From the NCBI GenBank assembly GCA_007695195.1, contig REEG01000186.1:1-55891 (forward strand): DNA of 55,891 nucleotides, in the 5' to 3' direction. The DNA comes from Gemmatimonadales bacterium (GTDB lineage Bacteria; Gemmatimonadota; Gemmatimonadetes; Longimicrobiales; Gaopeijiaceae). Shown here piece after piece: positions 21,530 through 38,366 of this stretch (the first letter of the stretch is position 1; each line of letters starts with the position of its first letter). Under the pieces are notes generated by a model. That model was not told where the DNA came from and did no database searches. It saw only the letters and a program-made list of their open reading frames with translations. The translations under genes and the position numbers were made by a program.

Positions 21530-22366
21530 ATGACACCCTCCACCCCCTCCCCCCGTTCGCAGTTCGCCCACGAGGTGGACCGCGCCGACGACCAGTTGAA
21601 TCTGGCGCGGGCGGCCCTCCTGGTGGCCAGGGAGGAGTACCCGCAGCTTCCGGTGGAGCCCTACCTGGCCCGCCTGGACCAGTTGGCGGAGGAGGTGAAG
21701 GACCGCCTGAACGACGAGACGAATCCCCTCATCGTTCTCCGCGAAGTGATCCACACCCTCTACGAGCGCCACGACTTCAGGGGGAACCGGGAGGCCTACT
21801 ACGACCCCCGGAATTCCTTCCTCTCCGACGTCCTGGATCGGGAGTTGGGGATCCCCCTCACCCTGGGCATCGTGGTCCTGGAGGTGGGGTGGCGTCTTGA
21901 CCTGCCCCTGGAAGCGGTGAACTTCCCCGGGCACTTCCTGGTGCGGTTCCGGGGAGAGGCCGTCTCGCTCTTGGTGGATCCCTTCGAGAAGGGGAAGATC
22001 CGCTTCGAGGACCAGGCGCAGGAGCTCCTGGATCGGGTCTACGGCGGCATGGTGCGGGTTCGCCCGGTCTTTCTCCGAGCGGCCAAGCGCCGGGATGTCC
22101 TGGTCCGCCTCCTTACGAACCTGAAGGGCGTCTACTCCAACGTGGGCGATCACCAGCGGGCGCTGGCGGCGGTGGACCGGATCCTCCTCATCCATCCCAC
22201 CTCCGCCGGGGAGATCCGGGACCGGGGTACGCTTCTGGCCCGCATGGGGCGCATCGACGAGGCGCTGGAGCAGTTGGAATGGTACCTGGACACCGCCCCG
22301 GAGGCGGCGGACGCCGGCCGGATCCGGCAGCTTGTGGATCAGCTCAAATGGAAGGACGAATCATGA
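21530..22366 (+). CDS. SirB1-family transglutaminase-like / TPR protein
   Basis: A 278-residue cytosolic protein. The central part (RNSFLSDVLDRELGIPLTL, then VNFPGHFLVRF) is the hallmark of the SirB1 N-terminal domain, a transglutaminase-like fold. The catalytic Cys of true transglutaminases is replaced by Ser in RNSFLSDVL, so enzyme activity is doubtful. Residues 200-270 form TPR-like helices (NVGDHQRALAAVDRILLIHP, then GRIDEALEQLEWYL). ATG 21530 is preferred over upstream starts that run into the divergent promoter region. The stop overlaps the YgfZ start (ATGA), so the pair is coupled. Function is unknown in the family. Confidence 0.8.
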   Translation: MTPSTPSPRSQFAHEVDRADDQLNLARAALLVAREEYPQLPVEPYLARLDQLAEEVKDRLNDETNPLIVLREVIHTLYERHDFRGNREAYYDPRNSFLSDVLDRELGIPLTLGIVVLEVGWRLDLPLEAVNFPGHFLVRFRGEAVSLLVDPFEKGKIRFEDQAQELLDRVYGGMVRVRPVFLRAAKRRDVLVRLLTNLKGVYSNVGDHQRALAAVDRILLIHPTSAGEIRDRGTLLARMGRIDEALEQLEWYLDTAPEAADAGRIRQLVDQLKWKDES

Positions 22367-23610
22367 CTGGACTCGCCGACACCGACGCGTTCCCCCTCAC
22401 CGCCATTCCCGCCCCCCTTCAGGACGTCCATCGGGAAGAGGGCGCCCGCATGGCCGAGACTCCGTGGGGCACGGTTCCGCGCCACTACGGCGATACCACC
22501 GCCGAGTACCGCGCCGCCACCGGCGAGGCCGCGCTGGTGGATCGTTCCAACCGGGTCCTGGTTCGTCTGGAGGGGCGCGCGCCGGGGCGGATGCTCACGG
22601 GGGTGGTCTCGGGTCGCATGCCTCCGGCACCCACCCCGGGAGACGACGGTGTGGGCCGGGGCCGGGCCTTCTACTCCACCATCCTGACGCCCAAGGGCCG
22701 GATCGTGACCGACCTGCGCCTCTTCCGTCTGGAGGGCGGAGACGAGGGGGCCCATCTCCTGGATGTGCCGGCGGCGGGGTGGGAGCCTCTCCAGGAGCAT
22801 TTCCAGCGCTACCTTCCGCCCCGCTTCGCCCGGGTGGTGGAGCCGTCTCCGGCAACGGGGATGATCACGGTGGTGGGGTCGGCGGCCGCTCACCTCCTGG
22901 CCGGGGCGTTCCCGGAGTTTTCGGGACTTGTCGGGGAGCTGGAGGCGCTGGAGGAAGGGGAGGAGCGGGTTCTTTCCCCCGGCGGCTTGGCATCTCGCGG
23001 CGGCTCAGGAGCCCCCGACGACGGAATGTCCCTCGGAGCGATCCATATTGTTCGCTCGGGAGAGGTGCAGCCGCTGGCCCTGGATGTGGTGGGCCCCGCC
23101 GACGCGCTGGCCGACATCTGGCGGCGGCTCCGGGAGCGGGGTGTCCCACCGGCGGGACACGCGGTCTGGGAGACGCTCCGGATCGAGCACGGACGTCCCG
23201 CCTTCGGGGTGGAGCTCCTTCCCGAAACGCTCCTCCCCGAGGCGGGCGTGGTGGCCCGGGCGGTGGATCAGACCAAGGGGTGCTATACCGGCCAGGAGGT
23301 CATCGTCCGGATCCGGGACCGGGGGAAGGTGAACCGCCACCTGCGTGGATTTCTCCTGGGTGACGCGCCGGCGCCGGCGGCAGGCACCCCCCTCTTCATC
23401 GAGGGCCGGAGTCGCGACGCCGGCGAGATCCGGAGCGCCGTGGAGTCACCGCGCTTCGGACAGGGGATCGCTCTGGGATACCTTCGACGGGAGGCCGAGC
23501 CTCCCGGTACGGCCCGGCTCGGGGCTCCCGACGGCCCCGAGATCGCGGTTCGGGCGCTGAGCGACGACGGGTGGATCCTGGCGGAAGACGACCCGGACCA
23601 CCACGACTGA
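22363..23610 (+). CDS. ygfZ: YgfZ/CAF17-like folate-binding protein
   Basis: A 415-residue GcvT-fold protein. The signature KGCYTGQEVIVRIRDRGKVN near residue 305 is the K-G-C-Y-x-G-Q-E motif that separates YgfZ/CAF17 from true GcvT aminomethyltransferases. YgfZ helps maturation or repair of some Fe-S enzymes and needs tetrahydrofolate. The start is set by an ATGA overlap with the SirB1-like gene. It is longer than E. coli YgfZ (326) because of inserted Gly/Asp-rich loops. The window has gcvH and gcvP but no gcvT, and this is the only GcvT-fold protein; the Cys motif argues against it supplying GcvT activity. Confidence 0.88.
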   Translation: MTGLADTDAFPLTAIPAPLQDVHREEGARMAETPWGTVPRHYGDTTAEYRAATGEAALVDRSNRVLVRLEGRAPGRMLTGVVSGRMPPAPTPGDDGVGRGRAFYSTILTPKGRIVTDLRLFRLEGGDEGAHLLDVPAAGWEPLQEHFQRYLPPRFARVVEPSPATGMITVVGSAAAHLLAGAFPEFSGLVGELEALEEGEERVLSPGGLASRGGSGAPDDGMSLGAIHIVRSGEVQPLALDVVGPADALADIWRRLRERGVPPAGHAVWETLRIEHGRPAFGVELLPETLLPEAGVVARAVDQTKGCYTGQEVIVRIRDRGKVNRHLRGFLLGDAPAPAAGTPLFIEGRSRDAGEIRSAVESPRFGQGIALGYLRREAEPPGTARLGAPDGPEIAVRALSDDGWILAEDDPDHHD

Positions 23611-23706: not shown

Positions 23707-24843
23707 TTACGACGCCCCGCGGCTCTCCGGGCTCCCTGCCAGGACGGCCTCCACGATGAGCCGGCCGTGCTCCCGTCCGTTCTCGATGAAGATGCGGTTC
23801 GCGTCGTGCCCCGCCGCCAGGACCCCGGCGATGAAGACTCCGTCCACCGGCGTTTCCATGGTGTGTGGGTTGTGGGCGGGGATTCCCGTGACATCATCCA
23901 CAGGAACCCCCAGCGAGCCCAGGATGGTGGGATTCGCCTTCCACCCGGTGAGGGCCAGCACCCAGTCGTTCCGGAGCTCGGTGGTTTCCCCCGATGCCTC
24001 CGAGCGAAGGACCACGGCATCGGGGCGGATCTCATGGACCCGGTGGGCCCACGCCATGCCGATCTCTCCATTCCGGATGCGGTTCTGGATGTCCGGGAGG
24101 ATCCAGGGCTTCACGCCCCGGTCGAACTCGTTGCCGAAGTGGACCATGTGAACCCGGGCTCCGGCCCGAAAGAGCTCCAGCGAAGCTTCCACGGCGCTGT
24201 TGGAACCGCCCACCACCAGCACGTCCTGACGCCAGTAGGGGTGGGCTTCCCGGTAGTGGTGCGAGACCTTGGGAAGGTCCTCTCCGGGGACGCCCAGGAG
24301 GTTGGGCTCGTGGAAGCCGCCGGTGGCCACCGCCACCCGCCGCGCCCGGTGCCTCGCCTCGCGACCGGCACCGTCCCGGGTGGTGATGAGGAAGACGTCG
24401 CTGTCTCGCTTCACCTCTACCACGCGGTGATACTGGTACACCGGAAGCTGGAAGTAGTCGGCCACCTTCCGGTAATAGGTGAGGGCCTCCTTCCGGGTGG
24501 CGGTCTTCTCGGAGGTCACGAAGGGAAGGCCCTCGATCTCCAGCTTCTCGGGGGTCGAGAAGAAGGTCATATACGTGGGGTAGCGGAGGATGGAGTCGCA
24601 GAGCGGGCCCTGGTCGAAGAGCGCCGTGGAAAGGCCCATTCGCCGGGCGGCGGCCCCCACGGCGATGCCGCACGGACCGGCGCCGATCACCGCCAACTCC
24701 ACTGGAGCACCGTCGGGCTCGACGTTGCCGGGCGAGGGTTCGTGGGACGATGGCTCGTCGGAAATGGGCTCGTCGGAAGGGGAGGCAGGGGACGGGGTGC
24801 GGCGCAGGGTGTCCATACGATCCATGACGGGGCGAGAGGGCAT
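23707..24843 (-). CDS. ypdA: YpdA-like NAD(P)H-dependent flavoprotein (bacillithiol disulfide reductase family)
   Basis: A 378-residue FAD/NAD(P)-binding oxidoreductase. The first dinucleotide fold is VIGAGPCGIAVGAAARRMGL and the second VLVVGGSNSAVEASLELF. TYMTFFSTPEKLEIEGLPFV between them is characteristic of the YpdA group. In Firmicutes YpdA/Bdr reduces bacillithiol disulfide with NADPH; whether this organism makes bacillithiol cannot be judged from the window. The N-terminal 40 residues are a Ser/Glu/Pro repeat (SDEPISDEPSSHEP) not usual for the family. ATG 24843 is used, but 24825 and 24816 are also possible and none has a strong Shine-Dalgarno. It is divergent from the LuxE/LuxC operon. 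Confidence 0.82.
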   Translation of the reverse strand: MPSRPVMDRMDTLRRTPSPASPSDEPISDEPSSHEPSPGNVEPDGAPVELAVIGAGPCGIAVGAAARRMGLSTALFDQGPLCDSILRYPTYMTFFSTPEKLEIEGLPFVTSEKTATRKEALTYYRKVADYFQLPVYQYHRVVEVKRDSDVFLITTRDGAGREARHRARRVAVATGGFHEPNLLGVPGEDLPKVSHHYREAHPYWRQDVLVVGGSNSAVEASLELFRAGARVHMVHFGNEFDRGVKPWILPDIQNRIRNGEIGMAWAHRVHEIRPDAVVLRSEASGETTELRNDWVLALTGWKANPTILGSLGVPVDDVTGIPAHNPHTMETPVDGVFIAGVLAAGHDANRIFIENGREHGRLIVEAVLAGSPESRGAS

Positions 24844-25040: not shown

Positions 25041-25307
25041 ATGACCACGGTGGAATCGGAGGCTCGTCGGGCCCTGAATCGCCTGAACCGGGCGCTGGAG
25101 AAGAGCCGCCGCGAGCTGACGGCGGTACGGGGAGCGCTGGAGCGCGCCGAGGGAGAGGACTTTCCGGTGGATGCCTACCATGAGGCGGAGGACGCCATCG
25201 CCCGGCTCCACGAGTTCGTGGCCGACGAGGGCCGACGCCTCCAGGATAAGATCCTCCATGCCGGCGGTCTGGAGCCGGGCCGGGTCCGGAGGTCGTCGGG
25301 AGGATGA
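25041..25307 (+). CDS. Small coiled-coil protein, unknown function
   Basis: 88 residues. Residues 5-45 (ARRALNRLNRALEKSRREL, then VRGALERAE) and 50-72 (AYHEAEDAIARLHEFVADE) are amphipathic helices with coiled-coil heptads, and there is no signal peptide or membrane segment. AGAGGGAGGTCAGG gives a ribosome binding site before ATG 25041. Its TGA overlaps the start of the LuxE-like gene (ATGA), so it is the first gene of a three-gene translationally coupled operon. It may hold the two enzymes together or regulate them, but this is only inferred from position. I know no family for it. Confidence 0.65.
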   Translation: MTTVESEARRALNRLNRALEKSRRELTAVRGALERAEGEDFPVDAYHEAEDAIARLHEFVADEGRRLQDKILHAGGLEPGRVRRSSGG

Positions 25308-26527
25308 GCCGCTCCGGTGAGGTGAAGGCCCTGGGAGATGAACTGAGGGCCGCGGTGGGAGCCTTCATGGCCCGGGCGTCCTGGGACGCGGCCGGTCGGG
25401 AGGCCGACGACGCCCGCTTCAACGAGCTGGCGCTGCGGGTCTTCCGCTATCAGACCGTGGCGGTCCCGGTCTACGGGCAGTTTGTGGCGAACCGGGGAAT
25501 TGATCCCCACTCCGTGCATGACTGGCACCACATCCCGCCCGTCCCGGCCCGGGCATTCCGGCGCTTCCCTCTGGTGGCGGGAGGCGAGGGGGAGCCGGTG
25601 GAGGCGGTATTCCGGACCAGCGGCACCAGCGGGGGCGAGGCGACCCGAGGGGTGCACCGGGTACTGGATCTCTCCCTCTACCGGGCCTCTCTTCTTCCCA
25701 CTGCCACGCGCCACCTCAATCCCCAGGGAGAATCCCTCCGGGTCCTGGCGCTGGCCCCTGCGCCCAGGGACCGACCCGATTCGTCGCTGGTCCACATGGT
25801 GGGGGTCTTTCACGAGGTCTGGGACGACGGCGGCGGTGGGTTCTTCGCCGATGGCCAGTGGCAGCTCCGGACCCTGGAACTCCTGTCGGCCCTGGAAGAT
25901 GCCGAGGCGTCGGGGGTGCCGGTCCTCATGGCCGGGACCGCCTTCGGATACGTGCACCTTCTGGATCTCCTGGCCCAGGAAGGTCGTACGGTGTGCCTTC
26001 CTCCGGGATCGCGCCTCATGGAGACGGGCGGCTTCAAGGGGCGGAGTCGGGAGGTGGCCCGGGAGACACTCTACGGCGACCTGGAACGTCGCCTGGGGAT
26101 TCCCATCCGGCGCATGGTGAACGAATACGGGATGACCGAACTCCTCTCCCAGTTCTGGGAGACCCCACTGGCGGATCCCCCTGGCCCGGACCACGACGAC
26201 CTGTCCCGGCGGTCTCTGGTGGGGCCGCCGTGGATCCGCACCCGCATCCTGGACCCCCATCGTCTCACGCCGGTGCCCCCAGGGGAGGTCGGGCTGCTCC
26301 AGCACCTGGATCTGGCGAACCTCCACGCCGTCTCGGCCCTTCTCACGGAGGACCAGGGCGTGGCGGTGACCCGCCGGCGATTCCGGGTGCTGGGTCGGCG
26401 GCCGGGGGCGGAACCCCGAGGCTGCTCCCTCTCCATGGAGGAGCTGGCGCTGGCGCGGTCCCAGGGTGCAGGCGGGGTCCGGGATGGAGCCCCGGTGCGG
26501 ACGGGCGGGGAGGCAGGGAATGCCTGA
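25304..26527 (+). CDS. LuxE-like acyl-protein synthetase
   Basis: A 407-residue ANL-fold, ATP-dependent enzyme. It has the phosphate loop FRTSGTSGGEATRG and the A5 motif MVNEYGMTELLSQFW, with the LuxE-type entry HIPPVPARAFRRFPL. LuxE activates a fatty acid as acyl-AMP, carries it on a Cys and passes it to LuxC for reduction to aldehyde. The A8-like end (REVARETLYGDLERRLGIP) also fits. It starts in an ATGA overlap with the coiled-coil gene and overlaps the LuxC-like gene by 8 bp. In LuxE the acyl Cys is near the C-terminus; here I see GCSLSMEEL near residue 377 as a candidate. The true substrate is unknown since no luciferase genes are near. Confidence 0.85.
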   Translation: MSRSGEVKALGDELRAAVGAFMARASWDAAGREADDARFNELALRVFRYQTVAVPVYGQFVANRGIDPHSVHDWHHIPPVPARAFRRFPLVAGGEGEPVEAVFRTSGTSGGEATRGVHRVLDLSLYRASLLPTATRHLNPQGESLRVLALAPAPRDRPDSSLVHMVGVFHEVWDDGGGGFFADGQWQLRTLELLSALEDAEASGVPVLMAGTAFGYVHLLDLLAQEGRTVCLPPGSRLMETGGFKGRSREVARETLYGDLERRLGIPIRRMVNEYGMTELLSQFWETPLADPPGPDHDDLSRRSLVGPPWIRTRILDPHRLTPVPPGEVGLLQHLDLANLHAVSALLTEDQGVAVTRRRFRVLGRRPGAEPRGCSLSMEELALARSQGAGGVRDGAPVRTGGEAGNA

Positions 26528-27935
26528 CCGTTTCCCGAGCTGGCACTTCCCTCCCGGAGCGGTGCCGACCCCCGGGTACGAGCCCCTGGATGACCTGGAC
26601 GTGGCGATCCTGGACCCGGACCAGGTGGACCACCTCCTGGACATTCTGGAGGCCTCGGCGGTGGAGCTACGGAAGATCCCGGCGCTGGAGCGGGCACGGC
26701 GCCTGGGGGCGGTGGGTCGGCGCCTTGGGGACCGGGGCGATCCCCTCCGGCGGGAGGCCGAGGAGCGACTGCCCCATCAGGCCGGCCTGTCTCCCGCCGT
26801 GGCACGTCAGCTTCTGGACCGGATGAGCGGACAGTGGACCCCGGAGGCGCTGGAGCGCCTGGTCCATGTGGAGTTTTCCGACCCGGCGGTGCTGGACGGC
26901 TTTCGTCTCCGCCCCGGAGCCGGAGATCGGGTCTGTGCCGTGGGAGACCGCCTGGCCCTCCACGTGGGGTCGGGAAACGTGCCCGGAGTGGGGGTGACTT
27001 CCGTCCTGCGGTCGCTTCTGGTGGGCACGCCGGTGCTCCTGAAGCCGGGGCGTGGGGATGTGGTCCTCCCGGTCCTGGCCGCCCGTGCCCTGGCCGGCGC
27101 GTTCCCGGAAGGGGCCGGTGCCCTGGCGGTGGCGTACTGGCCGGGGCGGGCGATTCCGGAGCTGGAGACCCGGGCCTTCGAGCGAGCCCGGCGCGTGGTG
27201 GTCTACGGCGGGATGGAGGTGGTCCGGAGCATCCGGGAACGTCTCCCGGCCCACACGCCCCTGGTGGCCTACCACCACCGGGTGTCGGCCGCCGCCGTGG
27301 CGCGGGAGATCCTGGCCGGGGAAGGGGAAGCCGAGGAGGTGGCCCGGGCCGCCGCCTCGGCGGTGGCGGCCTACGACCAGCAGGGGTGCGTGTCGCCCCA
27401 CATCTTCTGGGTCGAGCGGGGAGGGTCGGTGTCTCCGGAGGCGTGGGCCCGGCTGCTGGCGCGGGAGTTGGAGGCGCTGCAGAGGACGCTGCCGGCGCGG
27501 CCTACCGCCGAGCTGTCGGCCCGGATCCAGACCGTTCGTGGAGAGGCGGAGATGGATCGGGCTCTGGGTGCGGACACCCTGGTGCTGGCCCCGGGCGGCA
27601 CCGACTGGACGGTGATATGCGAATCGGGGTTCGCATTTGGCGGCGCCTGCGGAGGTCGGACGGCCAGGGTTCAGGCCATGGACCGTCTCGACGCCCTCGC
27701 CGGGTCCCTGACCCCCTGGGAGGGGATCCTCCAATCGGTGGCGCTGGAGTGCCCGGAGCCCAGGCGAACGGAGCTGGCCCGATCCCTGGCCCAGGTCGGT
27801 GTGAGCCGGATCACCACGTTGGAGCACCAGCCCTGGCCCGCCCCCTGGTGGCTACACGACGGCTCCGGCCCCTTGCGGGCGCTGGTGGGTTGGGTGTCGC
27901 TGGAGATGCCGGAGCCGTCGCCCCCTTCCTGCTGA
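26520..27935 (+). CDS. LuxC-like acyl-CoA/acyl-protein reductase
   Basis: A 471-residue NADPH-dependent reductase of the aldehyde dehydrogenase superfamily. LHVGSGNVPGVGVTSVLRSL and VLLKPGRGD match the nucleotide-binding part of LuxC, and AYDQQGCVSPHIFWVE carries the active-site Cys. The enzyme reduces activated fatty acid to long-chain aldehyde. ATG 26520 lies inside the end of the LuxE-like gene, so translation is coupled. No luxA, luxB or luxD is present, so light emission is not expected; aldehyde for wax, plasmalogen-like lipid or a special metabolite is an inference. Confidence 0.85.
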   Translation: MPDRFPSWHFPPGAVPTPGYEPLDDLDVAILDPDQVDHLLDILEASAVELRKIPALERARRLGAVGRRLGDRGDPLRREAEERLPHQAGLSPAVARQLLDRMSGQWTPEALERLVHVEFSDPAVLDGFRLRPGAGDRVCAVGDRLALHVGSGNVPGVGVTSVLRSLLVGTPVLLKPGRGDVVLPVLAARALAGAFPEGAGALAVAYWPGRAIPELETRAFERARRVVVYGGMEVVRSIRERLPAHTPLVAYHHRVSAAAVAREILAGEGEAEEVARAAASAVAAYDQQGCVSPHIFWVERGGSVSPEAWARLLARELEALQRTLPARPTAELSARIQTVRGEAEMDRALGADTLVLAPGGTDWTVICESGFAFGGACGGRTARVQAMDRLDALAGSLTPWEGILQSVALECPEPRRTELARSLAQVGVSRITTLEHQPWPAPWWLHDGSGPLRALVGWVSLEMPEPSPPSC

Positions 27936-27980: not shown

Positions 27981-28172
27981 TCAGTCCTCGCCCTGCTGCT
28001 CCGCTCGCCAGACCACGAGCTGACGGGTCCCCTTCGAGTTCTCCTCCACCCGGACGGTGAGGACGTCGCCTTCCTCGATTCCCAGGTCATCCCGCATCTC
28101 CTGGGGGATCGTGATCCTGCCGCCGACGCCGACGGTGACTTCTCCGAAGTAGCGGGTCCGGTAGATGGCCAT
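27981..28172 (-). CDS. AbrB/SpoVT-type DNA-binding protein
   Basis: A 63-residue swapped-hairpin protein: GEVTVGVGGRITIPQEMRDD, then LGIEEGDVLTVRVE is the standard AbrB/MazE fold. Such proteins are transition-state regulators or antitoxins of toxin-antitoxin pairs. AGGAGA precedes ATG 28172. A longer frame from 28280 has no ribosome binding site. No toxin-like gene (PIN or MazF) is adjacent; the nearest same-strand gene is the 94-residue unknown protein 220 bp upstream. It may be an orphan regulator. Confidence 0.75.
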   Translation of the reverse strand: MAIYRTRYFGEVTVGVGGRITIPQEMRDDLGIEEGDVLTVRVEENSKGTRQLVVWRAEQQGED

Positions 28173-28393: not shown

Positions 28394-28678
28394 TCACTCC
28401 GGGAGTAGAGAGCGAAGGAATGCCACCAGCTGATGGTCCTCCAACTGTCGGGCCCGGCGGATCGCCTCTTCATAGGACGGCTCGAGGATCACGGCGATGG
28501 TCCGGAGCGTCTCCTCGCCCTCATTCCGGTCGGCTGGGGAGTAGGCCAGGAGCGCCCTGTACGAATCCGGACGCCGGGGGTCGTCCTCGAACTCCAGGTA
28601 CACGTCCCAGAACCTGCCGTCGTGGCTGACGGTGGCCAGATGCTGGCCGTGGGAGGGGGGATCGGCATCGGCTGCCAT
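28394..28678 (-). CDS. Small hypothetical protein
   Basis: 94 residues, soluble, no signal peptide. It contains HDGRFWDVYLEFEDDPRRPD, then ETLRTIAVILEPSYEEAIRR and a helix ending in LVAFLRSLLP. GAGGG lies about eight bases before ATG 28678, a reasonable start. I do not recognise a family. It lies between the AbrB-like gene and the MscS gene on the same strand, with gaps of about 220 and 40 bp, so it may share a transcript with mscS upstream. Confidence 0.6.
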   Translation of the reverse strand: MAADADPPSHGQHLATVSHDGRFWDVYLEFEDDPRRPDSYRALLAYSPADRNEGEETLRTIAVILEPSYEEAIRRARQLEDHQLVAFLRSLLPE

Positions 28679-30763: not shown

Positions 30764-31312
30764 ATGGTGATGAAGAAGCAGTTGCTGATCGCGCTGGCAG
30801 CCTTTGTGGCTGTCCTGGGTTCCCTGGCCTTCGTTCAGGCTCAGTCCAACGGCGGTTCGGCCGACGTTCAAGAACAGGCCGGCCCGCCCCATGTGAACCC
30901 CTTCGAGTTCCCCCACGAACCCCACGTGGCGGTGAACAACATGGATTGCATGTACTGCCACTTCTCGGCGGAACGCTCCAAGAGCGCTGGGCATCCCTCC
31001 ATGGCCAGCTGCATGGGCTGCCACGCCTACGTCCAGGGCGATGCCCAGGCTGGAGACATCAACCAGCTCCGGGAGTTCTGGGACGCCCGGGAGCCCATTG
31101 CCTGGGAACGGATCTACCGCGTGGCCGACCACGTCTATTTCCCCCACATGCGGCACGTGGCCGCCGGTGTGGAGTGCGCCGACTGTCACGGCGACGTGGG
31201 CTACGAGATCAATGTGGTGGAGCGGGTGGAGCAGCCCCTCACCATGGGGTGGTGCCTGAACTGCCACATCGAGCAGGGCGCCTCCCTGGACTGCACGATC
31301 TGCCACTACTGA
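30764..31312 (+). CDS. actA: Alternative complex III, multiheme cytochrome c subunit ActA
   Basis: 182 residues with an N-terminal signal anchor (KKQLLIALAAFVAVLGSLAF). Five CxxCH heme sites are visible: CMYCH, CMGCH, CADCH, CLNCH and CTICH, so it is a pentaheme c-type cytochrome on the periplasmic side. In alternative complex III ActA relays electrons from ActB. It is first in the act operon, behind a well-placed promoter. ATG 30764 or 30770 are both possible starts. A short hairpin separates it from actB. Confidence 0.93.
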   Translation: MVMKKQLLIALAAFVAVLGSLAFVQAQSNGGSADVQEQAGPPHVNPFEFPHEPHVAVNNMDCMYCHFSAERSKSAGHPSMASCMGCHAYVQGDAQAGDINQLREFWDAREPIAWERIYRVADHVYFPHMRHVAAGVECADCHGDVGYEINVVERVEQPLTMGWCLNCHIEQGASLDCTICHY

Positions 31313-31336
31313 CATGACACCGCCAAGCCAGGACCG

Positions 31337-31374
31337 GCCCGGTGCCCCTCCGTCCTCGGGGGGCTCGACCGGGC
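31337..31374 (+). other. Intercistronic hairpin between actA and actB
   Basis: GCCCGGT (31337-31343) pairs with ACCGGGC (31368-31374). Inside, GCCCCTCC can pair in part with GGGGGGC, leaving a small loop. There is no T-run. It could stabilise the actA message or lower read-through so that actA is made in excess. Confidence 0.4.
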
Positions 31375-31402
31375 TGTTGCCATCGCACATTGAGGGAGTT
31401 TC

Positions 31403-34400
31403 ATGAGTGACGGGATGAAGCGGCGTGACTTTCTGAAGGTGCTGGGCGTCTCCGGCGCCGGGGCCGGCCTGGTGGGTTGTTCCACCGATCAGGTGGAGAA
31501 GCTCATGCCCTACGTGGTGCCGCCGGAAGACATCACCCCCGGGGTGGCCACCTGGTACTCCTCGGTCTGCGGCGAGTGCTCAGCCGGGTGTGGAACCTGG
31601 GTGAAGACCCGGGAGGGGCGGGCCATCAAGGTCGAAGGCAACCCCAACCACCCGGTTTCCGGCGGTGCCCTCTGTGCCCGTGGGCACGCCTCCCTCCAGG
31701 GGCTCTATAACCCGGACCGGCTCCGTCAGCCCATGCGACGGAACGGAGATGGTTTCGAAGCCATTTCCTGGGAGGAGGCCGAGTCCCTCCTTCTGGACGG
31801 TGTCGGCAACGCAGGAAATCGCATGGCGCTGGTGACCGGGAAGGAGGGGCCGACCCTCACCGCCCTCCTGGACGGAATCGTGGAGACGGCCGGTGGGCGT
31901 CGCGTCGAGTACGAGCCGCTCTCGGAGGCCCCCCTCCGGGAAGCGGCTCGACTGGCGTTCGGCCGGGATGTGATTCCCACCTACCGCCTCGAAGAAGCCG
32001 ACCTCATCGTCTCCTTCGGCGCCGATTTCCTCGAGACGTGGCTCTCGCCGGTGGAGTATGGCCGCTCCTTCACCCGCGCCCACTCCGTGGACGCCGACGA
32101 CAACAAGGGACGCTTCGTCTTCCTCTCGCCGCGCCTGTCCCTGACCGGCCAGAACGCCGACGAGTGGGTGCCGCTTCAGCCGGGGTCCGAGGCGGTGGTG
32201 GCGCTGGCCATGGCCAACGTCCTCATGCGGAACGGCGCTGACGCCGGCCCCTACGCCGACCTCCTTCAGGCCTACACGCCGGACTCGGCAGCCCAGGAGG
32301 CCGGGATTCCAGCCGACACCATCGAGGAGCTGGCGCTGGCCTTCGGCGAGGCCGACTCGCTGGCTCTCGGGCCGGGTGTGGCGGCGCAGGGCGCCAACGC
32401 CACGGCTGCCAACCTGGCTGTGCTGGTCCTGAACGCGGTGGCCGGCAACGTGGGCTCCACCCTCCACGTGGGTGTGGAGAATCGGGCCGCCCCCGCCGCT
32501 CCCCACCGGGACCTCATGGACGTGGTGGAGGCCATGGGTCGCGGCGGTCTGGATGCGGTGATCTTCTACGGGACGAATCCGGCCTACGCCCTTCCTCCTG
32601 GCGCCGGCTTCGCCGACGCCCTTGGCTCTGTGGGCTTCAAGGTGGCCGTGACCCAGCAGATGGATGAGACCGCCGCTCTCTGCGATCTGGTCCTCCCCGT
32701 CCGCCATTCCCTGGAGGACTGGGGAGACGCCAACCCGCGACCCGGCCTCTGGTCCGTTCGCCAGCCCACCATGGTCCCGGTTCCGCACTTCGACTCGCGG
32801 CCGGTGGGGGATGTGTTCCTGACCCTGGCCCGTGGGCTGGGACAGGATGTGGACTCGGGGAGCTTCCACGAGTACCTGCAGGCCCGGTGGGAAGAGCGTC
32901 ACGCCGACCTCGGTTCACCCGGCGGCTCCTTCGAGGAGTTCTGGCGGGAAGCGCTGCGGACCGGCGTCATCACCGTGGATGAGGGCGCGACCTCCGAGCC
33001 GTCGCTTCAGGCCCCGGACCGAGCCCTCTCCTTCGACCGGCCCTCGCTGGAAGGCGAAGGGATGGCCCTGGTGGTTTATCCTTCGTCCCGTCTCGCCGAC
33101 GGCCGCGGTGCCAACAAGCCGTGGCTGCAGGAGCTTCCCGACCCGGTGACCAAGCTGGCTTGGCACTCCTGGGTCGAGATGCACCCCGATACCGTGGAGG
33201 AGATGGGACTCCGCCGGGGCGACATGGTCCGGGTCCGGTCGCCCCACGGCGAGGTGGAGGTTCCGGTCTATCCCTACCCAGGGGTGCGCACCGATACCGT
33301 GGCCATCTCCATGGGAGCCGGTCACGAGAACTACGGCCGGTACGCCGACGGGAAGGGGGTGAACCCCATGGCACTCCTCCCGGGCACCGCCGAGGACGTT
33401 GTGGGCTCCCTGAATCATCTGGCGGTCCGGGTCCAGATCGAGCCTACGGGGCAGTGGCGCCGGCTGGCCACCATCGAGGGCTCCAGCGATCAGTACGACC
33501 GGCCCATCGCCCCTGCGGTGCAGATCGACGATCTCCGTGAAGGCATCCAGGACGCTGAGCGCTATCCGCTCTACGAGCTTCAGGGTGGTGGCGGCTTCCT
33601 GCCGGTTCCCGTCCCCGGCGGTGGCGCGCCGGAGGATTACCCCCTGGCGGGCGCCCAGTACGGGGACTACGACCCGGAGGAGAACCCCCGCTGGGCCATG
33701 GCCATCGACCTGGACAAGTGCACCGGGTGTTCCGCCTGCGTGGTGGCCTGTCAGTCCGAGAACAATGTGGCATCGGTGGGTGAGGACCAGCTCATGATGG
33801 GCCGGGACCTCCACTGGATCCGCATGGACCGGTATTTCGAAGAGGTGGATGCCACGCAGCCGGGGCCGGTGGACGTGCGCTTCCTCCCCATGATCTGCCA
33901 GCACTGCGGAAACGCGCCGTGCGAGCCGGTGTGCCCGGTATACGCGGCCTACCACACACCGGACGGCCTCAACGGTCAGATCTACAACCGGTGTGTGGGA
34001 ACTCGTTACTGCGCCAACAACTGCCCCTACAAGATCCGGGTCTTCAACTGGCACCGCTTCTCCGACGTCCCCGAGCCCCTCAACTGGCAGTACAATCCCG
34101 ATGTCACGGTTCGGGATGAGGGCGTCATGGAGAAGTGCTCGTTCTGCGTGCAGCGGATCCGTGAGCGTCAGAATCGCGCCACGGTGGAGGGTCGGATTCT
34201 GGGGGCGGACGAGGTGGTTCCGGCGTGTCAGCAGAGCTGCCCTGCCGAGGCCATCGTCTTCGGGAACATCCGGGATCCCGAGTCCCGGGTGGCGCAGGTC
34301 TCGCAGGACCAGCGGACGTACCGCATCTACGATATCCTGATCAATACGCAACCGGCGGTGAACTACCTCCGGAAGGTGACCTTCCACCCGGTGACGTCGA

Positions 34401-34411
34401 TCGAGGTCTGA
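31403..34411 (+). CDS. actB: Alternative complex III, iron-sulfur and molybdopterin-like subunit ActB
   Basis: 1002 residues. A twin-arginine type start (KRRDFLKVLGVSG) and a Cys at GLVGC allow export with lipid attachment. Residues 50-750 form a molybdopterin oxidoreductase-like domain (CGECSAGCGTWVK, then ALCARGHASLQGLYNPDRL); in known complexes the cofactor is missing. The C-terminal third is a ferredoxin-like module with Cys clusters CTGCSACVVACQ, CQHCGNAPCEPVCPVYAA, RYCANNCPYK and KCSFCVQR with ACQQSCP, fitting [4Fe-4S] and [3Fe-4S] centres. It passes electrons from quinol to ActA and ActE. Fusion of the two modules is normal for ActB. Confidence 0.95.
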   Translation: MSDGMKRRDFLKVLGVSGAGAGLVGCSTDQVEKLMPYVVPPEDITPGVATWYSSVCGECSAGCGTWVKTREGRAIKVEGNPNHPVSGGALCARGHASLQGLYNPDRLRQPMRRNGDGFEAISWEEAESLLLDGVGNAGNRMALVTGKEGPTLTALLDGIVETAGGRRVEYEPLSEAPLREAARLAFGRDVIPTYRLEEADLIVSFGADFLETWLSPVEYGRSFTRAHSVDADDNKGRFVFLSPRLSLTGQNADEWVPLQPGSEAVVALAMANVLMRNGADAGPYADLLQAYTPDSAAQEAGIPADTIEELALAFGEADSLALGPGVAAQGANATAANLAVLVLNAVAGNVGSTLHVGVENRAAPAAPHRDLMDVVEAMGRGGLDAVIFYGTNPAYALPPGAGFADALGSVGFKVAVTQQMDETAALCDLVLPVRHSLEDWGDANPRPGLWSVRQPTMVPVPHFDSRPVGDVFLTLARGLGQDVDSGSFHEYLQARWEERHADLGSPGGSFEEFWREALRTGVITVDEGATSEPSLQAPDRALSFDRPSLEGEGMALVVYPSSRLADGRGANKPWLQELPDPVTKLAWHSWVEMHPDTVEEMGLRRGDMVRVRSPHGEVEVPVYPYPGVRTDTVAISMGAGHENYGRYADGKGVNPMALLPGTAEDVVGSLNHLAVRVQIEPTGQWRRLATIEGSSDQYDRPIAPAVQIDDLREGIQDAERYPLYELQGGGGFLPVPVPGGGAPEDYPLAGAQYGDYDPEENPRWAMAIDLDKCTGCSACVVACQSENNVASVGEDQLMMGRDLHWIRMDRYFEEVDATQPGPVDVRFLPMICQHCGNAPCEPVCPVYAAYHTPDGLNGQIYNRCVGTRYCANNCPYKIRVFNWHRFSDVPEPLNWQYNPDVTVRDEGVMEKCSFCVQRIRERQNRATVEGRILGADEVVPACQQSCPAEAIVFGNIRDPESRVAQVSQDQRTYRIYDILINTQPAVNYLRKVTFHPVTSIEV

Positions 34412-34457
34412 TCCACCGAGGCTCGGCATCGACTCCAGCGGGGACGAGAGGCAACGA

Positions 34458-35833
<1,376 letters not shown>

Positions 35834-35837
<4 letters not shown>

Positions 35838-36382
35838 GCGCCGCCAAGGCCGCAGATACGGCTCGGGAAGGCCTGCTGGCTTCCTACGAATACCTGGACT
35901 CCACGGTGGACACCATCACCGAACTCCGGGAAAAGGGCTTTGAGGAGATCACCGCCTTCGCTCCCTTCCCGGAGCACCACATCGAGCACGCTCTGGGCTA
36001 CCATCACAGCCCTGTGCGGTTGTTCACCCTGGTGGGAGGCCTCACCGGCGCCGCCGCGGGCTTCGCCTTCACGGTCTTCACCAGTATGGACTGGCCGTTG
36101 GTCACCGGCGGGAAGCCCATCGTGGCCATCCCGGCCTACGTGATCCCGGCCTTCGAAATGACGATTCTCTTCGGCGCCCTGGCCACCGTCATCGGCGTCC
36201 TGTACAACATGCGGATCCCGGATCTCAAGGGTGACGTGGTCTACGACCCCGAGTTCAGTGCGGGGAAGTTCGGGATCTACGTCACCGCTCCGCCTGAGCA
36301 GATGGCTACGGTGCGGAGCATCCTGGAGACCAACGAACCCACCCAGATCCAGACGGATCCCAAGGGAAGGTCCCATGGCTGA
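35834..36382 (+). CDS. actD: Alternative complex III, subunit ActD (DUF3341)
   Basis: 182 residues. An N-terminal soluble part has YEYLDSTVDTITELREKGFE and FAPFPEHHIEHALG; two transmembrane helices follow (RLFTLVGGLTGAAAGFAFTV; YVIPAFEMTILFGALATVIG). This is the DUF3341 layout of ActD, a small structural subunit of alternative complex III. Overlaps actC by 4 bp and actE by 8 bp. Confidence 0.93.
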
Positions 36383-37025
36383 TTCAAGAACGCCTCGCCT
36401 CCGGGGGGTCCGCTCCCTGGCCGCCTTTCTCGCCCTGCTCATGGTTGCCGGATGCAACCCTGTGGACGACCTCATGGTCTCCATCTTCGGGCGCAGTATG
36501 CGGGATCAGCCTTCGTTCAACCCGTATGAGAACCCGCAGCTGGCTCCTGAGGGGTCGGTTTCCTTCTCGTCGGGCAACTTCCCCGGTGAGCCCCACACCG
36601 TGAATCTGGGCTCGCCTGAGGGCCAGGCTCCGCCTCCGCCCATCACGCCCCTCATGCTCCTCCAGGGCGATCCCCGTGCGGTGGGGCTGGAGAACCCTGT
36701 GGCGCCGGACGCCGCGTCGCTGGCTCGGGGGCAGGAGATGTACCTGCGGTCCTGCGCACCCTGCCACGGCGACGCCGGAGCCGGTGGGGGCCCTGTGACG
36801 GCCTTCGGCGTGCCCAACTGGAGCCTCCAGGAAGACACGGCTCTTGAGTTCTCGGATGGCTACATCTACTCCATCATCCGTGTCGGGCGCGGCGCCATGC
36901 CGGCCTATGGTCACCAGATCACGCACTACGATCGGTGGCATATCGTGAACTACGTTCGGCAGCTTCAGGGAGAGCTTCCCGGTCAGGAAGAGCCCGAAGT
37001 CCAAGCCCAGTCTTCGGACAACTGA
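36375..37025 (+). CDS. actE: Alternative complex III, cytochrome c subunit ActE
   Basis: 216 residues. A lipobox (LALLMVAGC) gives a lipid-anchored protein. One heme c site, CAPCH near residue 131, with a Met ligand candidate in GRGAMPAYGHQ. It is the monoheme electron exit of alternative complex III. ATG 36375 lies inside the end of actD. The acidic tail (EEPEVQAQSSDN) is ordinary. Confidence 0.93.
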   Translation: MADSRTPRLRGVRSLAAFLALLMVAGCNPVDDLMVSIFGRSMRDQPSFNPYENPQLAPEGSVSFSSGNFPGEPHTVNLGSPEGQAPPPPITPLMLLQGDPRAVGLENPVAPDAASLARGQEMYLRSCAPCHGDAGAGGGPVTAFGVPNWSLQEDTALEFSDGYIYSIIRVGRGAMPAYGHQITHYDRWHIVNYVRQLQGELPGQEEPEVQAQSSDN

Positions 37026-37037
37026 GGAAGATCCGCG

Positions 37038-38366
37038 ATGCACGACATCCATATCCCCTCGGACATCCAGGCCCGGTACCTGTCCAAGAAATCCCCGCTC
37101 ACGCTGGTGTTTCTCGGTCTCGCGGTCCTGGGTTTCGGAGCCTTCGCCTTCCTCCTGACCTCCGACCCGGACCGGGCCTGGCAGGCCTACGCCTCCAACT
37201 GGCTCTTCTGGACCAGTATGGCCCAGGGCGCTCTGATGTTGGCGGTGGTCACCGTCATCGTGAAAGCAAAGTGGAACTGGTCGGTGCGGAGGATCTCGCT
37301 TGCATTCGGGGCCTTCCTTCCCATCGCCTTCCTCCTTGTCATCCCCATGCTCCTGGGGCTACGGGAAGACTACTTCCCCTGGCTGGGGGAATTGGCCACC
37401 GACACCACGGTGGCCAAGAAGTTGGCGTACCTGAACCTGCCGTTCCTCCTTTCCCGCACGGTGATCGGACTTCTGGTGCTCTTCACCATGAGTCTCATCT
37501 TCATGTATTTCGCGCTGCGCCCGGACCTGGGTCCGGATCGGGCCGCGGATGAGGAAGGGGACGGAGGACGCGCCCGGTGGCGTGAGCGCCTCGCCGGGGG
37601 ATGGCAGGGCCAGGCGCAGGAGGAGGCCCGGAGCTGGGCACGCCTGAAGGTCCTGGCGCCTGCCATGGCGCTGATCTTCGCCGTGGTCATGAGCATGATC
37701 TCGGTGGACTGGGCCATGTCGGTGGCGCCTGGGTGGTATTCCATGCTCTTCCCGGCCTGGTTCTTCATGGGCGGCTTCTGGGGCGGGATCCTCCTCACCG
37801 CTCTGGTGGCGGTGCTCCTGAAGCGCGCCTCCCCGGCCTTCGACGAGGCCATGGGTTCTCAGCAGCTCCACGACCTGGGGAAGCTGGCGTTCGCCTTCTC
37901 CATCTTCTGGGCCTACCTGGTCTTCTCCCAGTACATCGTCATCTGGTACGGGAAGCAGCCCTGGGAGCAGAGCTGGGTCATCGCGCGGTCCGGTTCGGAG
38001 TGGGGCGGGCTCTCACTGGCCATGATCACCCTCTGTTTCTTCGTGCCCTTCATCGGCCTCCTGGGCCGGGCGCCCAAGATGATTCCCGCCTGGTTGGGCA
38101 GCATCGCCGCGCTGGGGCTGGCGGGACTCTGGCTCGAGCGGTTCATCCTCATCGCCCCCAGCCTCCACGAGCCCGGTACCGCGACTCTGACCCTCTGGGA
38201 GCCGGTCATCGCCCTGGGGTTCTTCGGTCTGTTCGCCGGGAGCACGCGGTGGTTCCTGTCCACCTTCCCGGTGATCCAGAAGTGGCAGCATCCCATCGAG
38301 CCCGAGTCCATCGAGGCGGAGCTTCCGCCTGAGGAAGCGCGGTTGGTGGGGTCCCGCGGGAGGTAG
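37038..38366 (+). CDS. actF: Alternative complex III, NrfD-like membrane subunit ActF
   Basis: 442 residues with about ten transmembrane helices, a paralogue of ActC. Visible landmarks are ISVDWAMSVAPGWYSMLFPA, WFFMGGFWGGILL and YIVIWYGKQPWEQSWV. With ActC it builds the membrane part of alternative complex III. A charged loop (ADEEGDGGRARWRERLAG) lies around 175-195. The operon ends here: no actG and no cytochrome oxidase genes follow. Confidence 0.93.
   Translation: MHDIHIPSDIQARYLSKKSPLTLVFLGLAVLGFGAFAFLLTSDPDRAWQAYASNWLFWTSMAQGALMLAVVTVIVKAKWNWSVRRISLAFGAFLPIAFLLVIPMLLGLREDYFPWLGELATDTTVAKKLAYLNLPFLLSRTVIGLLVLFTMSLIFMYFALRPDLGPDRAADEEGDGGRARWRERLAGGWQGQAQEEARSWARLKVLAPAMALIFAVVMSMISVDWAMSVAPGWYSMLFPAWFFMGGFWGGILLTALVAVLLKRASPAFDEAMGSQQLHDLGKLAFAFSIFWAYLVFSQYIVIWYGKQPWEQSWVIARSGSEWGGLSLAMITLCFFVPFIGLLGRAPKMIPAWLGSIAALGLAGLWLERFILIAPSLHEPGTATLTLWEPVIALGFFGLFAGSTRWFLSTFPVIQKWQHPIEPESIEAELPPEEARLVGSRGR

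Follow-up and report, generated by a model that had tools for sequence, protein, structure and literature searches.

The luxE and luxC genes of the window (the whole stretch of 55,891 nucleotides that was analysed) probably encode a two-enzyme fatty-acid reductase adjoined by an 88-aa protein that belongs to an unrelated, lineage-specific helical-hairpin family. The genome that contains the window (3.92 Mb, 96% complete) was compared with 97 related genomes, in which the families of one Gemmatimonadota order are coded f1 (the family of the window), f2 and f3; a distant family, f5, was also used for the comparison of luxE/luxC gene order. Gene maps of the relatives were drawn with a home-made gene caller, so that gene starts outside the window are approximate, and two loci, L186 and L098, were judged from search matches only, without gene calls. 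The locus and its immediate surroundings comprise the following features:

21530 to 22366, plus strand: SirB1-like transglutaminase-core/TPR protein (PF13369, PF13371)
22348 to 23610, plus strand: YgfZ (CAF17-like) protein (TIGR03317, 66.3 bits against a cut-off of 49)
23707 to 24825, minus strand: YpdA-type bacillithiol-disulfide reductase (TIGR04018, 394.5 bits against a cut-off of 339.9)
25041 to 25307, plus strand: gene of the 88-aa protein (homologues in 59 of 97 relatives, AlphaFold2 model, no family over threshold)
25304 to 25307, plus strand: ATGA, holding the stop codon of the small gene and the start codon of luxE (read from the sequence)
25304 to 26527, plus strand: luxE, LuxE-family acyl-protein synthetase of 407 aa (PF04443, E-value 3.3e-16)
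26520 to 27935, plus strand: luxC, LuxC-family acyl reductase of 471 aa (PF05893, E-value 6.9e-57)
27981 to 28172, minus strand: AbrB/MazE-type protein of 63 aa (TIGR01439, 36.8 bits)
28394 to 28678, minus strand: 94-aa protein without a Pfam match, convergent with luxC

The initial annotation described three translationally coupled genes at this position, and all three open reading frames are present, with the start of luxE overlapping the stop of the small gene by 4 nt and the start of luxC at 26520 overlapping the 3′ end of luxE (26527) by 8 nt. Downstream in the window, a cytochrome/molybdopterin-type operon (30764 to 38366) resembles, by eye, alternative complex III.

In luminous bacteria, LuxE and LuxC together convert fatty acids to aldehydes. 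The assignment of the two larger proteins as an acyl-protein synthetase and an acyl reductase is borne out by scores above the Pfam gathering cut-offs, at 59.6 bits against 24.9 for LuxE (PF04443) and 193.6 bits against 21 for LuxC (PF05893), and by catalytic cysteines that are intact in both. Significant PDB relatives come from 7xc6 alone, the matching chains being annotated as LuxE and as a long-chain acyl-protein thioester reductase. Cys290 of LuxC (codon 27387 to 27389), found in the sequence YDQQGC, aligns to YDQQAC of 7xc6 chain A and is invariant across 40 LuxC homologues of the lineage, with the DQ-x-x-C motif present. Cys374 of LuxE (codon 26423 to 26425), found in RGCSLS, aligns to the cysteine of KGCSLS in 7xc6 chain E, and the AMP-binding motif TSGT and the motif YGMTE lie at residues 105–108 and 275–279, respectively; Cys374 is invariant in 44 LuxE homologues of the lineage, in which SGT and YGMTE are each at least 98% conserved. 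Both enzymes fall far below the cut-offs of the NCBIfam luminescence equivalogs (NF052244/NF052251 pair of models), with LuxE at 41.1 of 550 bits and LuxC at 51.2 of 750 bits, so that the pair may use a substrate other than long-chain fatty acids.

The pair probably makes a fatty aldehyde, by analogy with the luminous homologues, from which the reaction, the acyl substrate and the use of NADPH are inferred. LuxE would use ATP to adenylate a fatty acid, forming an acyl-AMP, and would then load the acyl group onto its own Cys374. From there the acyl group would move to Cys290 of LuxC, where reduction by NADPH would yield the aldehyde.

Within this Gemmatimonadota order, LuxE and LuxC have been passed on vertically as a pair. 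Each protein occurs in 84 of the 97 relatives, with both present in 83 genomes, neither in 12 and a mismatch in two, one of these holding LuxC only (61% complete) and the other LuxE only (Fisher p 2e-13 for co-occurrence in the 97 genomes). The LuxE and LuxC gene trees match the host families with the minimum possible number of changes. The two genes adjoin in f1, f2 and f5; in several f3 genomes they co-occur despite being a few genes apart or on separate contigs. The gene preceding luxE is the 88-aa gene, an amidohydrolase or a DAO oxidase in f1, a DUF255/thioredoxin-domain protein or a sensor kinase in f2, a PBP4 carboxypeptidase in f3 and QueE in f5. The f3 arrangement, as seen for example in L176, L178 and L181, runs luxC, zinc-ribbon membrane protein, PBP4 carboxypeptidase and luxE. 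In the f5 loci L183 (genome G094) and L182 (genome G091), the order is QueE, LuxE and LuxC, such that a deazaguanine gene leads the pair, and the genes overlap in L183.

No luxA, luxB or luxD gene was seen in the window, consistent with the initial description of a LuxE-LuxC pair without luciferase. Luciferase-like monooxygenases (PF00296) are encoded at three places in the genome, two of them full-length; these two were rejected as candidate luciferases because they are members of other subfamilies, TIGR03858 and TIGR04020, and score about 60 bits against a luciferase-alpha cut-off of 600. The TIGR04020 (MupA/Atu3671-type) monooxygenase, located at 1459 to 3051 of L193 on contig C265, carries a C-terminal carrier-protein-like domain that matches NRPS models. 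The search for PF02273, the luxD family, returned no match, but it returned none for the control sequences either.

With a reductase pair and no luciferase, the aldehyde must go elsewhere, which supports the earlier proposal that it has another fate. The plasmalogen desaturase CarF (PF10520) was found in one of the 97 relatives and a wax-ester synthase (WS/DGAT, PF03007) over cut-off in two, and plasmalogens and wax esters were therefore rejected as general sinks for the aldehyde. It may be speculated that the aldehyde is reduced to a fatty alcohol or put into a lipid or envelope component.

The small gene upstream of luxE encodes a genuine, undescribed protein family that is limited to f1 and f2 of the order. 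Homologues occur in 59 of the 97 relatives, mostly with 50–72% identity, and the protein is often better conserved among the relatives than LuxC. Across 33 homologues, nucleotide identity is 0.70, 0.75 and 0.41 at the three successive codon positions, which together with the presence of homologues in the relatives indicates that the small open reading frame is a real gene. In a count across the phylum, the family was found in 91 of 395 genomes, all of f1 or f2, and a wider scan of 84,980 species genomes recovered 54 loci, the titles of which are mostly Gemmatimonadota or its groups, with four or five titled as Gammaproteobacteria MAGs. AlphaFold2 predicts a two-helix antiparallel hairpin (helices at residues 3–40 and 43–73) with a mean pLDDT of 87.8, followed by a tail, AGGLEPGRVRR, that is conserved in sequence and flexible in the model. 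Searches of the protein against Pfam, NCBIfam and PDB sequences gave sub-threshold matches only, and a fold search returned generic antiparallel coiled coils only, with no E-value under 0.001. There is no invariant serine (36 homologues) or invariant cysteine in the family, which argues against an acyl carrier; a role as an acyl carrier protein was rejected on the lack of an invariant phosphopantetheine serine, the two-helix hairpin and the lack of a match to an ACP family.

The genomic surroundings of the small gene vary between loci. Among the 54 public loci, the next gene downstream encodes an amidohydrolase in 24, LuxE in 19 and GGCT in two, the rest having another gene or a contig end. 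The small gene overlaps luxE by 4 nt in 11 of the 19 directly adjacent loci, and the same 4-nt overlap joins it to the amidohydrolase gene in four loci and to the GGCT gene in one. The three-gene cassette that had been proposed, with the small gene immediately before luxE, exists in part of f1 and is not found outside it. Upstream, a divergent ypdA lies immediately next to the small gene in 28 of the 48 public loci with room for it, and the small gene in f1 sits between this divergent gene and a variable downstream gene. The syntenic stretch that separates ypdA from luxEC in f1 holds the small gene, which is probably co-translated with whichever gene comes next. The divergent arrangement of ypdA and the small gene is kept in most f1 genomes, and it is possible that the two share a control region of about 215 bp; the YpdA-type reductase itself is a neighbour of LuxEC and not a part of it. 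Most f1 genomes retain the 63-aa AbrB/MazE-type gene, which is convergent with luxC, and so does one of the mapped f2 genomes; the 94-aa gene on the same strand likewise stays near luxC in the majority of f1 genomes and in a single f2 genome.

A SirB1-like protein is a neighbour of the small gene common to f1 and f2, with YgfZ directly upstream of the small gene in f2. In three f2 loci with long mapped flanks (L089, L091 and L093), the small gene lies by SirB1, YgfZ and GGCT genes with no luxEC near, and in L093 it overlaps both the YgfZ and GGCT genes. The small gene and luxEC are on different contigs in all nine f2 genomes holding both, a count that is to be read with the possibility that draft assemblies separate true neighbours onto different contigs.

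The 88-aa protein is probably not a component of LuxEC, as indicated by the f2 contigs, the other coupling partners and the distribution of the two across genomes. Presence of the small gene shows no association with LuxC in f1 (47 genomes with both, three with the small gene only, six with LuxC only and one with neither; p 0.42), and the gene is absent from 21 of 21 f3 genomes, 17 of which have LuxC. Three f2 genomes and several f1 genomes also have LuxEC without the small gene, and the catalytic cysteines are intact wherever they were read; the genomes G007 and G047, for example, lack the small gene and have LuxE and LuxC with both cysteines. Conversely, luxE and luxC are both missing from genome G012 (96% complete), in which a long contig carries the small gene beside an amidohydrolase gene; two genomes of lower completeness likewise have the small gene without LuxEC. 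The protein had been proposed as a scaffold or acyl-carrier adaptor of the pair, a proposal that is not supported, given this two-way independence, the similar coupling to amidohydrolase and GGCT genes and the lack of an invariant serine or cysteine.

If the small protein served a LuxE-LuxC complex as a subunit, scaffold or regulator, at least within the f1 subclade with overlapping genes, this would account for the three overlapping genes of the window and for the direct adjacency in 19 of the 54 public loci (4-nt overlap in 11), and the predicted helical hairpin with its conserved tail has the kind of shape suited to binding a partner. However, such a role is very unlikely in light of the separate contigs in f2, the small gene without LuxEC in G012, the lack of the gene from every f3 genome and from several f1 genomes whose LuxEC retains both cysteines, and the identical coupling to amidohydrolase and GGCT. 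On the LuxE tree, two changes suffice to explain the direct adjacency of the small gene and luxE, leaving room for a local recruitment at low probability; it is very doubtful that, in the f1 subclade including this genome, the protein was recruited as a dedicated third component of LuxE-LuxC, acting as an assembly factor or regulator with a non-luminescent aldehyde product. The small protein is better taken as an example of gene overlap in a single genome suggesting a complex that comparison does not support.

Two further readings concern the acyl group on which LuxE-LuxC acts. In many f1 genomes, the order of small gene, Amidohydro_3 gene, in some cases a DAO oxidase gene, luxE and luxC could represent one pathway, in which the amidohydrolase, which we take to be D-aminoacylase-like with an N-acyl amino acid substrate, would free a fatty acid for LuxE-LuxC. 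In 24 of the 54 loci the gene after the small one encodes the amidohydrolase, often with LuxE further downstream, and a DAO-family FAD oxidase lies beside luxE in some loci. This pathway is nevertheless highly improbable, as the genome of the window has no close copy of the amidohydrolase (best match 42%, against about 56–68% for close copies elsewhere), close copies in f2 and f3 lie away from luxEC, and the N-acyl amino acid substrate is a putative one, expected from the family. The lack of a close copy in the genome of the window also led to the rejection of the amidohydrolase as an obligate partner of LuxEC. Alternatively, the acyl group handled by LuxE-LuxC may be short or unusual rather than that of a long-chain fatty acid, as may hold for LuxE-domain proteins encoded in O-antigen (tetronate) and flagellin-glycan clusters. 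The low scores against the luminescence equivalogs are consistent with such a substrate, as are the LuxE/LuxC genes already described from glycan clusters (PMC7874193, PMC4875605, PMC4772473). The short-acyl substrate is rather unlikely, however, as the mapped genomes, in which many neighbours are unnamed, showed no recognisable glycan island around the pair, and the pair has a core-gene distribution in the order. A fatty-acid reductase with an independent small neighbour is therefore the preferred reading of the locus.

The locus had also been put forward as a candidate new system; however, LuxE and LuxC genes in non-luminous bacteria have already been published (PMC7874193, PMC4875605, PMC4772473), and the present pair is another case of luciferase-free LuxE/LuxC as known elsewhere. 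A literature search of limited coverage found no publications on LuxC in Gemmatimonadota. The 88-aa protein represents an undescribed, strongly conserved family, and the near-universal presence of LuxE-LuxC in one order makes the use of aldehydes by non-luminous bacteria testable there.

Compared with the luminous LuxE-LuxC reductase (PDB 7xc6), the pair belongs to the same Pfam families, the catalytic cysteines of both enzymes align and the genes adjoin in f1, f2 and f5, but there are no adjacent luxA/B genes, the equivalog cut-offs are missed and the gene order is luxE-luxC. The Mycobacterium marinum mel2 locus includes a LuxC-like gene and has a proposed aldehyde role outside luminescence (PMC1793995); it differs from the present pair in its luciferase-like gene and in the lack of a clear LuxE. 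Riemerella anatipestifer AS87_03730 is a LuxE homologue of a non-luminous bacterium, as here, although it is from the Bacteroidota and the available portion of its report (PMC4772473), which also cites a LuxE domain in RfbN of V. cholerae, makes no mention of LuxC. LuxE and LuxC genes have been described in the flagellin glycosylation islands of Aeromonas (PMC7874193) and Enterobacteriaceae (PMC4875605), which share with the present locus the presence of both enzymes without a luciferase. These islands are accessory and contain acyl carrier protein, reductase and glycosyltransferase genes, whereas the LuxE-LuxC of this Gemmatimonadota order is a core-gene pair located among housekeeping genes.
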